49,306 nucleotides of DNA from Clostridia bacterium (GTDB taxonomy: Bacteria > Bacillota > Clostridia > Christensenellales > Aristaeellaceae). The notes below the pieces were generated by a model. It was not told where the DNA came from, did no database searches, and saw nothing but the letters and a program-made list of their open reading frames with translations. The position numbers and the translations under genes were made by a program. The stretch is taken from positions 1 to 49,306 of the forward strand of contig JAFTPN010000033.1 of assembly GCA_017463245.1 (NCBI GenBank), read 5' to 3'. Positions 6,254 to 11,132 of this stretch are shown piece by piece (the stretch's first letter is position 1; every line of letters starts with the position of its first letter).

Positions 6254-7549
6254 TTATTTTTCAAGCTCCTTATACACCGGCTTTCCAATGCGGGTCAGGC
6301 AAAGGCTGCACCCCAGCACACCCACGATGAAGAACATCAGGGCAATGCCGTCGCCCTTCCCCGTGCCGAACACCGCGCCTGCGATCCGCTGCATGGCAGC
6401 ATTTCCGGCCATCATGGGTTCAAACACATGGTCAGCCAGCACGCCGCCCAGCAGAAGCCCCAAAGGCACCGTGCAGTTTTGCAGCGTATCCTTCACGGAA
6501 AAGACGCGCCCCTGCATCTCCATGGGAACGCACTCCCGCAGCACGGCCATCAGGTTGGCATTCATGTACGCCGCCGTCATATAGGTGGCAAAAGCAGCCG
6601 CGCACCACACCCAGGGCGACCGGGAGAGGCTCTGCATGATGTTGCCCGAAAACACAAAGGCATAGGCAAGAAACATGGCCTTCGTCTTGTTCTTTGCCGG
6701 CTTCATCACGGCAACGATCAGGCTTCCCGCCAGCAGCCCCAGGGCAATGTAGCTTTGCACCATGCCCAGCGCCTGCTGGTCGTTGCCCGTTCTGCCCAGC
6801 ACAAAGGGTGCAAGCATGCCGTCGTTGCCCATTTTCGCAAGCAGGTTCACCACCGCCAGGAACAGCGTCAGGTGCAGGATGGCCTTATGCTCCCCAAGGA
6901 AGCGGATGCCATCCATCAGGCTCTTTCTGAACGGCTCTGCTGCTTCCTTCTTTGCTCTTGCCACCTCCGGCAGCCTGATGAACAGCAGCAGCGATAAGAA
7001 CGCCACCGCAAAGCTTGCCAGATCGCAGATCAGCACCAGCTTCAATCCGCCCCGCGCCAGCAGCACGCCGCCCAGCGCCGGAGAGAGAATGGACACCGCC
7101 GCACCCGCAAAGCCTTGCAGCCCGCCAGCCCTGGCATAATGCTCCTTGGGTACCAGCAGGCTTGTGGCCACATAGGAGGCCGGAACCTGAAAGGCATTCA
7201 TCAGGCTCAGCAGCACATTGATGAGATACAAATGCCATATCCTGAGTGCAGACAAGGAATACAGCGCCAGCACCGCCGCTGTGCCGCAGGCCGCCGCCAG
7301 GTCAGAAATCAGCATGATGCGCTTCTTATCCCAGCAGTCTGCCAGCGTTCCGGCAATGAAGCGGAAGAGGATCGTGGGCAAAAAGGAACACAGCGTCAGC
7401 AGCGTTGTGCTGGAGGCGGTTCCCTCCTGGCCGTAAACCCAGATGGTCAGCGCATAATTGGTCATGGCTGTACCAAGGGCAGATACAGCCTGGGAACTCC
7501 ACAGGATCAGAAACTTCCGCAGTTCTTTGATGATCGTAAACTTTTTCAT
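6254..7549 (-). CDS. MFS efflux transporter, Mef-like (DHA3 type)
   Basis: A 431-residue, 12-helix major facilitator. The N-terminus (KKFTIIKELRKFLILWSSQA) and the first intracellular loop AGTLADCWDKKRIMLISDL match the drug:H+ antiporter branch that contains Mef macrolide pumps and enterobactin exporters. It would expel a drug or natural product using the proton gradient. The ATG at 7549 has AAGGAG seven bases upstream, but that ribosome binding site is inside an RNA hairpin (see 7550-7669) and follows an 18-codon ORF, so expression is probably inducible. It ends at a strong terminator and is monocistronic. A macrolide or other ribosome-targeting antibiotic as substrate is an inference from the leader arrangement, not from the protein. 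Confidence 0.87.
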   Translation of the reverse strand: MKKFTIIKELRKFLILWSSQAVSALGTAMTNYALTIWVYGQEGTASSTTLLTLCSFLPTILFRFIAGTLADCWDKKRIMLISDLAAACGTAAVLALYSLSALRIWHLYLINVLLSLMNAFQVPASYVATSLLVPKEHYARAGGLQGFAGAAVSILSPALGGVLLARGGLKLVLICDLASFAVAFLSLLLFIRLPEVARAKKEAAEPFRKSLMDGIRFLGEHKAILHLTLFLAVVNLLAKMGNDGMLAPFVLGRTGNDQQALGMVQSYIALGLLAGSLIVAVMKPAKNKTKAMFLAYAFVFSGNIMQSLSRSPWVWCAAAFATYMTAAYMNANLMAVLRECVPMEMQGRVFSVKDTLQNCTVPLGLLLGGVLADHVFEPMMAGNAAMQRIAGAVFGTGKGDGIALMFFIVGVLGCSLCLTRIGKPVYKELEK

Positions 7550-7669
7550 GGCTTTGCTCCTTACAATTATTTTGAATCATGTAAGCAGCGCAAAGCCCAA
7601 TGCGGACGATCAGTCAATCAGGTCACTTGCTCCGTGCAGGCATCGTCCTATCAGACCTTGCGCGGAGCA
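7550..7669 (-). promoter_or_regulatory. Putative translational attenuator of the MFS gene
   Basis: Three inverted repeats are visible in the leader transcript. Stem A: TGCTCCG, within the last codons of the small ORF (7663-7669), with CGGAGCA (7628-7634). Stem B: GGACGAT (7642-7648) with ATCGTCC (7604-7610); A and B interlock and cannot easily coexist. Stem C: GGCTTTGC (7590-7597) with GCAAAGCC (7550-7557), reinforced by CTTAC/GTAAG (7581-7585 and 7560-7564); it ends at the MFS start codon and hides AAGGAG (7557-7562). No U-tract follows stem C, so control would be at translation. The arrangement parallels ErmC-type attenuation, by inference. Confidence 0.6.
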
Positions 7670-7707
7670 GAGACATCTGCGGGCAAAGGCAGCCAGGTGA
7701 TGGGCAT
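7651..7707 (-). CDS. 18-residue leader peptide MPITWLPLPADVSAPRKV
   Basis: A tiny ORF of 18 codons plus TGA. It has a strong ribosome binding site (GGAGGT, seven bases before the ATG) and follows a good promoter by about 37 bases. The peptide is Pro-rich (four prolines, WLPLP in the middle) and ends in Pro-Arg-Lys-Val, which could favour ribosome arrest. Its last codons form the left arm of stem A of the downstream hairpin system. It does not match the leader peptides of ermC, ermB or mef(A) that I remember. Role by inference: sensor ORF for antibiotic-dependent ribosome stalling that opens the MFS ribosome binding site. Confidence 0.62.
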   Translation of the reverse strand: MPITWLPLPADVSAPRKV

Positions 7708-7744
7708 GGTAGCACCTCCATTTTCAATGAATTTCTGTTATTTC

Positions 7745-7773
7745 ATTATAGCATAGTTCAAACCATCGGTAAA
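7745..7773 (-). promoter_or_regulatory. Sigma-A promoter for leader ORF and MFS gene
   Basis: TTTACC (7768-7773) and a perfect TATAAT (7745-7750) are separated by 17 bases. Transcription should start near 7738, about 30 bases before the leader ORF, leaving a leader of about 190 bases before the MFS gene. Confidence 0.75.
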
Positions 7774-7810
7774 GAAAAAACAGCCCGGGAAGCTTCTTCT
7801 CCCCAGGCTG
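7774..7810 (-). terminator. Intrinsic terminator of metG-tatD operon
   Basis: CAGCCTGGG pairs with CCCGGGCTG (one G-U) and is followed by six U residues, directly after the Nudix remnant. Confidence 0.85.
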
Positions 7811-7814
7811 CCGT

Positions 7815-10861: not shown

Positions 10862-11126
10862 GCAGACAAAAGAAAAACTCCACCCCTCTTGTGATCGAGG
10901 GGCGGAGAAAAGCGAGACACTTTAATGGGACGAAGTCCCTCTCTCCGCGTTGCCACCCTGATTTGTCGCTCATCATACGCATAACGGCGCGACCCGTCGC
11001 AGCCTAAGGCGAACCCTCAGCCGCGAAGCTCCGGAGCCATGTTCCCCCGCCCTCCGCGGCTGCCTCTCACCTACCGCAGCTCTCTTGGCACATTGGCACA
11101 GGGTACTCTCTCTTTCAACGCTTGTA
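10862..11126 (-). promoter_or_regulatory. T-box riboswitch (tRNA-Met) upstream of metG
   Basis: The transcript contains the T-box core AGGGTGGCAACGCGGAGA (10942-10959), followed by an 11-bp terminator stem (CTCCGCCCCTC with GAGGGGTGGAG, 10878-10907) and a U-rich tract (10867-10877). Upstream lies a long Stem I region whose specifier loop carries GAACATGGC; the ATG at 11038-11040 fits a methionine specifier, in agreement with metG. Uncharged tRNA-Met should stabilise the antiterminator. The start is set by the promoter at 11133-11162. Confidence 0.88.
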
Positions 11127-11132
11127 AGGCAT

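Follow-up and report, generated by a model that had tools for sequence, protein, structure and literature searches.

The DNA upstream of an MFS drug-exporter-like gene in the window (the whole stretch of 49,306 nucleotides that was analysed) probably constitutes a portable translation attenuator that senses ribosomes and in which ribosome arrest triggers the formation of an antisequestor; the probability of this reading is put at roughly 0.7. The antisequestor is built on a helix newly found here, 1b:3, into which the last codons of the leader open reading frame (ORF) enter themselves. As shown by comparison of related leaders, the element comprises an ORF whose last codons serve as arm 1, a hairpin 1:1′, an arm 3 complementary to the Shine–Dalgarno sequence (SD), and an antisequestor that excludes the competing folds.

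Organization of the locus

All parts named in the original prediction are present in the window, on the minus strand, which had been left unstated. The good promoter it had claimed is a sigma-A type site (7745–7773, minus strand) with 10/12 consensus matches, composed of a −35 element TTTACC (7773–7768), a 17-nt spacer, and a −10 element TATAAT (7750–7745) extended by a preceding TG; a promoter scan returned one site in the region as compared with a mean of 0.6 in shuffles. The intrinsic-terminator-like hairpin located just upstream of the promoter and outside the switch (7779–7812, minus strand) suggests that the leader and the MFS gene form a separate unit. The announced leader ORF of 18 codons (MPITWLPLPADVSAPRKV, then TGA; 7651–7707, minus strand) is likewise present, preceded by its ribosome binding site GGAGGT (7714–7719, minus strand). 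It is followed by the gene of a 431-aa MFS drug-exporter-like protein (6254–7549, minus strand; ATG at 7549) with the SD AAGGAG (7562–7557, minus strand). The protein reaches 96.9 bits on MFS_1 (cut-off 33.4), and its scores on TIGR00900 and the Mef models all lie below the model cut-offs, with 99.7 (MefA), 98.7 (MefB), 89.8 (MefC), and 79.7 bits (MefEN2) against curated Mef cut-offs of 675–870. The earlier description of the gene as Mef-like, and of its host lineage as Clostridia, holds with scores below these cut-offs. No solved structure of a relative was found at E 0.001, and 45 of 72,556 plasmid records match the pump, every one at <60% identity, so that carriage of the window pump on plasmids was rejected. 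Elsewhere in the window, a T-box leader (RF00230, 102 bits) occupies 10923–11127 (minus strand); the gene behind it (10837–8822) resembles, by eye, a methionyl-tRNA synthetase.

For this layout, a transcription attenuator of the kind seen in mef/msr and ABC-F leaders is extremely improbable. One leader of the uup type (L100, by eye) does have a terminator-like hairpin behind it; in the window, however, arm 3′ of the switch adjoins and overlaps the SD, and the minus strand from promoter to MFS start, including the interval between leader ORF and gene, is without a terminator-like site, the two sites found (at 7779–7812) both lying upstream of the promoter.

Conservation of the element

A DNA search of 100 genomes, including the window's own, gave matches in 9/100, with two loci (L010, L011) that look like chance. 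In the genome of the window, one match is a second copy on contig C89, where the MFS gene behind it is a paralogue. When an alignment of 8 such MFS proteins was used to search named genome contigs, 130 relatives were obtained, and the best 80 of these, together with the window, L013, and L008, make up the 83 leaders examined. The element was recognised by script in 75/83 leaders before MFS relatives. Six leaders were set aside with no element seen (L040, L065, L088, L089, L092, L093) and two as degenerate (L022, L023); the latter were later matched by a covariance model with 40.2 and 42.4 bits, respectively, and L065 was matched with 49.8 bits about 230 nt further upstream. Among the carriers are Paenibacillus (L035, L045), the culturable Lacrimispora celerecrescens (L044), and the spirochaete Breznakiella homolactica (L034). 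Both the ORF and the stems, whose conservation in relatives the original prediction had made its check, are kept in nearly all of the 75 leaders, and this conservation speaks against a mere chance arrangement.

Alternative pairings in the leader

From 5′ to 3′, the minus strand carries arm 1 (1a and 1b), TGA, 2a, 1′, 2a′, 3, and 3′ beside the SD, which together can form four helices, 1:1′, 2a:2a′, 3:3′, and 1b:3. Arm 1a (GCTCC, 7664–7668) has 1′ as its sole partner. Arm 1b (GCGCAAGGTC, 10 nt, 7654–7663) is made of the last leader codons. In the OFF hairpin, 1′ takes up the first 4 nt of 1b, and in the antisequestor arm 3 takes up the full 10 nt. Arm 1′ (GCACGGAGC, 7629–7637) is the partner of arm 1 in the OFF hairpin, and stem 1 runs from GCTCC at 7668 to GGAGC ending at 7629. 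Arm 2a (GGACGAT, 7642–7648) pairs with arm 2a′ (ATCGTCC, 7604–7610), which lengthens the antisequestor. Arm 3 (GGCTTTGCGC, 7588–7597), the anti-SD arm, pairs with either 3′ (OFF) or 1b (ON); the third stem joins GGCTTTGC (7597–7590) to GCAAAGCC (7557–7550), i.e., arm 3′, which with the SD occupies 7550–7562. The two mutually exclusive stems, the third stem over the MFS ribosome binding site, and the location of the left arm of stem 1 inside the last leader codons were all correctly predicted. What the prediction missed is the decisive pairing of the leader end with the anti-SD arm, 1b:3. The antisequestor, made of 1b:3 and 2a:2a′, is incompatible with both the hairpin 1:1′ and the sequestor 3:3′.

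Covariation was assessed in an alignment of 65/75 leaders, the others (L046, L053, L054, L055, L064, L068, L079, L082, L083, L087) being left out mostly for long or odd linkers. In helix 1b:3, 95.4% of cells are paired as against 90.4% in shuffles (0/500 as high), 53 cells have changed on both sides as against 15.1 in shuffles, and sliding the arms out of register leaves 15–46% paired. Helix 1:1′ has 94.9% of cells paired (0/500 shuffles as high) and 50 double changes (shuffles 16.3). Counts over all 75 leaders agree, with 94.5% and 95.3% for 1b:3 and 1:1′. The slid controls and double changes weigh more than the shuffles, since kin sequences can beat shuffles without structure. Helix 2a:2a′ attains a best-helix score of 19.15 as compared with 14.61 when partners are swapped between the 75 leaders (maximum of 200 swaps, 15.66), and in the 17 leaders that lack GGACG/GGGCG it scores 17.5 with the leader's own partner and 12.2 with those of others. 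Compensatory changes, proposed earlier as a check, are therefore present, 1:1′, 1b:3, and 2a:2a′ all covarying. For 3:3′, pairs are formed in 67–74/75 leaders at each of 8 positions; these are pair counts only, and they are biased to pairing, the 3′ arm having been chosen by script as the best complement. By the same script, a convincing 3′ arm at the SD is absent in 5/75 leaders (L021, L041, L082, L083, L087).

Helix 1b:3 ends abruptly at GCTCC, the next pair being made in 3/75 leaders. At its other end, 2a:2a′ sits within 1b:3, and both therefore form one long antisequestor; the two are contiguous by eye in L068, and the predicted antisequestor of the window is almost unbroken (fold −38.5 kcal/mol). 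The stability of the window leader folded alone is unremarkable (z −1.57; 16/200 shuffles fold as well). The order of arms 1, 2a, 1′, and 2a′ would also permit 1:1′ and 2a:2a′ to form an H-type pseudoknot that binds a small molecule, making the element a true riboswitch with an incidental ORF; in addition, the Rfam uup motif, which scores 21.2 bits here, is discussed among riboswitch-like motifs in the literature. This alternative is very unlikely. Helix 2a:2a′ prolongs 1b:3, which covaries and excludes 1:1′, and the pseudoknot was dropped for this reason. Moreover, an SD-led ORF in the right frame (72/75 leaders), synonymous codon change at −10/−9, and a predicted fold that varies with ribosome position all speak against it.

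Leader peptide and position of the ribosome

A start with an SD match lies in the frame of arm 1 in 72/75 leaders, as compared with 18/75 and 10/75 in the other two frames. The ORF is variable in length, and its conserved codons outside the arms are those for residues −10 to −8, counted back from the stop. Residue −10 is Leu in 42 and Ala in 14 of 75 leaders, residue −9 is Cys (38) or Ala (33), together 71/75, and residue −8 is Ile (36), Asp (17), or Gln (7). Among distinct single-step codon pairs at −10/−9, 22/43 are synonymous, where 13.4 are expected. Codon −8 ends mostly in T in the 75 MFS leaders, and codon −7 (window 7674–7672) starts with G in 69/75 despite a varying residue (Val, Ala, Gly, Asp, Glu).

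The effect of ribosome position was predicted by a virtual-ribosome scan, in which the leader is covered up to the start of the P-site codon +15 and the RNA downstream of the ribosome is folded. The scan comprised the 65/75 leaders with a reliable assignment of the 3′ arm (left out were L021, L026, L035, L038, L039, L041, L042, L082, L083, and L087). The mean probability of the sequestor, P(3:3′), is 0.41 without a ribosome, 0.21 and 0.22 with the P site at −9 and −8, 0.90 at −7, and 0.96–0.97 from −6 to the stop. In the window, P(3:3′) is 0.00 at −9, 0.00 at −8, and 0.80 at −7, and P(1b:3) is 1.00 at both −9 and −8 and 0.07 at −7. Of the 65 leaders, 57 have their highest SD accessibility at −9 (36) or −8 (21). 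A scan at nucleotide resolution, carried out with 33 of the 65, puts the minimum of P(3:3′) (0.17–0.31) at first free bases +3 to +7 relative to GCTCC; at +8, the probability has risen to 0.70. The predicted ON positions are the same codons whose residues are conserved outside the arms, and the predicted arrest site of the window comprises codons −9 (GCA, Ala10) and −8 (GAT, Asp11; 7675–7680, minus strand). Ala-Asp is found at −9/−8 in 17/75 leaders.

The idea that a stalled ribosome alters folding was therefore correct, the predicted fold varying with ribosome position; the stall had been placed at the end of the ORF, where the scan yields OFF (at the last codons, the sequestor has a mean probability of 0.96). 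In that reading, which can draw on the last five codons being the most conserved of the ORF and on a stop placed directly behind codon −1 in 64/75 leaders, the SD would be opened by a ribosome arrested on the C-terminal PRKV-stop of a Pro-rich peptide. This is nevertheless very unlikely, since these codons are pairing arms with compensatory changes, a ribosome located there hides 1b and 2a, and the stop is missing at that place in 11/75 leaders; a stall at the stop codon was dropped on the outcome of the folding scan. The new Pro-rich arrest peptide itself finds no support. WLPLP, one of two motifs whose conservation was to be checked, occurs in 3/75 leaders, APRKV in 13/75, and APCKV in 22/75, and conservation of the other, PRKV, mainly reflects RNA pairing.

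Two predictions argue against a simple scheme. Without a ribosome, the leader does not settle in the OFF fold at equilibrium, P(1b:3) being 0.84 in the window and 0.54 on average, and repression must therefore make use of translation or of folding kinetics. In the ON fold of the window, a local hairpin still pairs part of the SD (SD-unpaired probability 0.28 at −9 vs 0.21 without a ribosome).

Proposed mechanism

In the absence of drug, ribosomes would traverse the leader ORF and cover 1b, such that 3:3′ can form; 1b would then be caught by 1:1′, and the pump gene would stay OFF. In the presence of a translation inhibitor, a ribosome would be arrested with codon −9 or −8 (Ala10 or Asp11 in the window) in its P site. 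The leading edge of the arrested ribosome would hide GCTCC alone and thereby prevent hairpin 1:1′, 1b-2a would pair with 2a′-3, and the SD would be freed for translation of the pump. With the ribosome one codon further on, the sequestor would prevail; the element gives a sharp geometric rule for the position at which a ribosome must stop. Of the traits of a drug-inducible translation attenuator, an SD-led ORF in a fixed register with the pairing arms and an SD held in a hairpin are present, and a mutually exclusive fold that frees the SD with the ribosome at a particular codon is predicted, SD release being predicted to be weak in the window.

Genes behind the switch

A covariance model built from element leaders (R1) was applied to genome samples that overlap and include the source leaders of R1. 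At E 0.01 or better, it matched 28/391 class, 32/100 family, and 6/398 phylum genomes, and at E 0.001 it matched 29/146, 2/20, and 21/148 genomes in the families of G412, G367, and G750. The last of these is probably Paenibacillaceae, as suggested by leader likeness to L045. An E of 0.01 for each genome implies about four matches by chance among 391 genomes, and L162 (E 0.004) looks like one; the 363/391 class genomes without an R1 match were used as a chance control. Downstream of the 91 loci returned (L104–L194), blastp identified MFS proteins (65), the CD3324 family (9), Cfr (5), CAT (3), and others (6), with none found at 3. Two of the five Cfr proteins were scanned and exceed the TIGR04432 cut-off of 550 with 598 and 621 bits, and the CAT-like proteins score 194–201 bits on PF00302 (cut-off 23.5) and 210–214 bits on the CatA equivalog, under its cut-off of 270. 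Members of the CD3324 family (106–119 bits, cut-off 65; 4 of 9 scanned) are small proteins with a Mor-like HTH that are often found behind the switch (L130, L131, L165, L166, L186, L187, L190, L192, L193, and 12 of L198–L218); the literature found under the name CD3324 deals with nematodes.

The family of G750 contributes 21 new loci, which by eye comprise 3 MFS genes, 12 CD3324-like genes (L201 scanned), 4 genes of a 217-aa protein (L208, L209, L211, L212), and 2 ambiguous cases. One of the four 217-aa proteins was scanned: EF-G-binding_N and FBP_C exceed their Pfam cut-offs, the best NCBIfam models, FusD and FusB, stay below theirs, and Far1 structures are matched. A ceramidase-like protein lies directly behind the leader at L167 and L169; the one scanned reaches 36.4 bits (cut-off 32.1), in a match confined to the N-terminal 100 residues. 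Ceramide and chloramphenicol have a 2-acylamino-1,3-diol unit in common, and this hydrolase could therefore be a chloramphenicol amidase. L171 encodes a 185-aa protein that is nucleotidyltransferase-like by eye, without a Pfam or NCBIfam match. R1 had no match in the plasmid regions of cfr(A), cfr(B), and cfr(C), of which two are informative because the cfr(A) locus spans just 15 bases upstream; the known plasmid cfr genes were thus rejected as carriers.

Folding of 15 non-MFS leaders gave an ON window in L125, L127, L128 (weak), L165, L130, and L216, a broad or partial one in L126, L167, L201, L208, and L212, and a weak one in L193; in L124, L186, and L203 the 3′ arm was misplaced by the script. 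By eye, the ORF frame at GCTCC is GCT-CCA in MFS and CAT-like leaders and CTC-CAT or CGC-TCC in Cfr and several CD3324 leaders. This variation by gene class, together with control of genes that answer different drugs (CAT-like, Cfr, FusB-like), would fit a switch that senses a general slowing of translation rather than specific drugs, with the ORF sequence of minor importance and any pause within the sensitive stretch flipping the fold. Such a switch is rather unlikely, since Cys or Ala at −9 in 71/75 leaders indicates a residue-level requirement in the MFS class. The element, which is real, conserved, and covarying, is common to MFS, Cfr, CAT-like, FusB-like, and CD3324 genes and is read as a switch that unrelated genes for resistance to translation inhibitors share. 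It is conceivable, at somewhat less than even odds, that one portable switch with codon-precise reading of arrest governs unrelated defences against translation inhibitors, i.e., efflux, drug acetylation, 23S rRNA methylation, and EF-G protection, in Clostridia, Paenibacillus, and at least one spirochaete, and that it hence marks new resistance genes, such as those of the CD3324 family and the ceramidase-like hydrolase. The element would in this way constitute a sequence handle for undescribed resistance genes.

The inducer

Phenicols are substrates of CAT enzymes and fall within the resistance range of Cfr as well. With the same switch ahead of CAT-like and Cfr genes, the macrolides suggested by the original analogy to erm and mef are not the first choice as inducers. 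For the pump version, a phenicol would be the most likely one; the pump family would respond to an antibiotic of the peptidyl transferase centre, and the MFS protein would export the same drug. The annotation of plasmid cfr reads phenicol/lincosamide/oxazolidinone/pleuromutilin/streptogramin. On the leader of CmlA (KNAD), ribosomes arrested by chloramphenicol carry Asp in the P site after a penultimate Ala (PMC11190716); chloramphenicol and linezolid favour penultimate Ala, then Ser/Thr (PMC8987054), and an incoming Gly is reported to counter chloramphenicol (PMC10192921). Ala10-Asp11 of the window, and Ala-Asp in the 17/75 leaders, fit the chloramphenicol context if codon −8 occupies the P site. 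The published Ala/Ser/Thr contexts do not include Cys, the residue at −9 in 38/75 leaders; Gly is present at −7 in 14/75 leaders and, by eye, at −9 in two of the three CAT-like leaders; and FusB-like genes suggest fusidic acid rather than phenicols. Because Cys or Gly at −9, the differing frames of Cfr and CD3324 leaders, and the FusB-like genes escape the phenicol rule, an inducer is proposed for the pump class only. Both the inducer and the substrate of many uncharacterised gut Mef-like pumps become testable in this way.

Comparison with known systems

No Rfam family matches the element of the window at its gathering score, and among the open-licence papers that literature searches brought up, none was recognised as describing the leader. 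The best Rfam hit in the region is the uup RNA motif (RF03060), on hairpin 1, with 21.2 bits and E 0.07. Identity with uup RNA was rejected: the gathering score is 36.8, 9 other element leaders are without a uup match up to E 5, and R1 scores ≤22.3 bits on 9 uup loci, the two best matches lying on the opposite strand. True uup RNAs were found in nine of 291 genomes (L095–L103), and the three downstream proteins scanned are all MatE transporters. Like the element, uup members have, by eye, an SD-led ORF that runs into a hairpin, a second pairing from the hairpin loop, and a CTTTG arm; the second loop pairing of L096 is CCGATGAAA/TTTCATCGG. Since an SD-led ORF enters the hairpin and a second loop pairing exists, uup RNA, an orphan riboswitch candidate, may also be a leader-ORF attenuator.

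In ermC-type attenuators (PMC5418344), a stalled ribosome toggles between SD-sequestering and SD-free folds, as is predicted for the element, but the arms and their order differ from those found here. No erm gene is among the identified downstream genes, and no macrolide-arrest motif was recognised in the leaders. The leaders of the ABC-F genes CplR, VmlR, and Lmo0919 resemble the element in that a uORF induced by antibiotics controls intrinsic resistance in Firmicutes; unlike it, they terminate transcription prematurely and have uORFs that are very short, such as MRI in CplR (PMC10201436).

The cat, cmlA, and fexA attenuators are single SD hairpins opened by a ribosome. With these (PMC5418344), the element has in common a short leader ORF, a drug-arrested ribosome, which is predicted here, and translational control of a CAT or an MFS exporter, and the KNAD arrest of CmlAL, with Ala penultimate and Asp in the P site (PMC11190716), matches the Ala10-Asp11 site offered here. 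In contrast to these attenuators, the element is made of competing helices, with an antisequestor formed from the leader's own last codons, and it covaries and stands before unrelated genes. Whereas known attenuators have, to our knowledge, mostly been described one gene at a time, one covarying element is here common to gene families that are alike in little but ribosome-targeting drugs.
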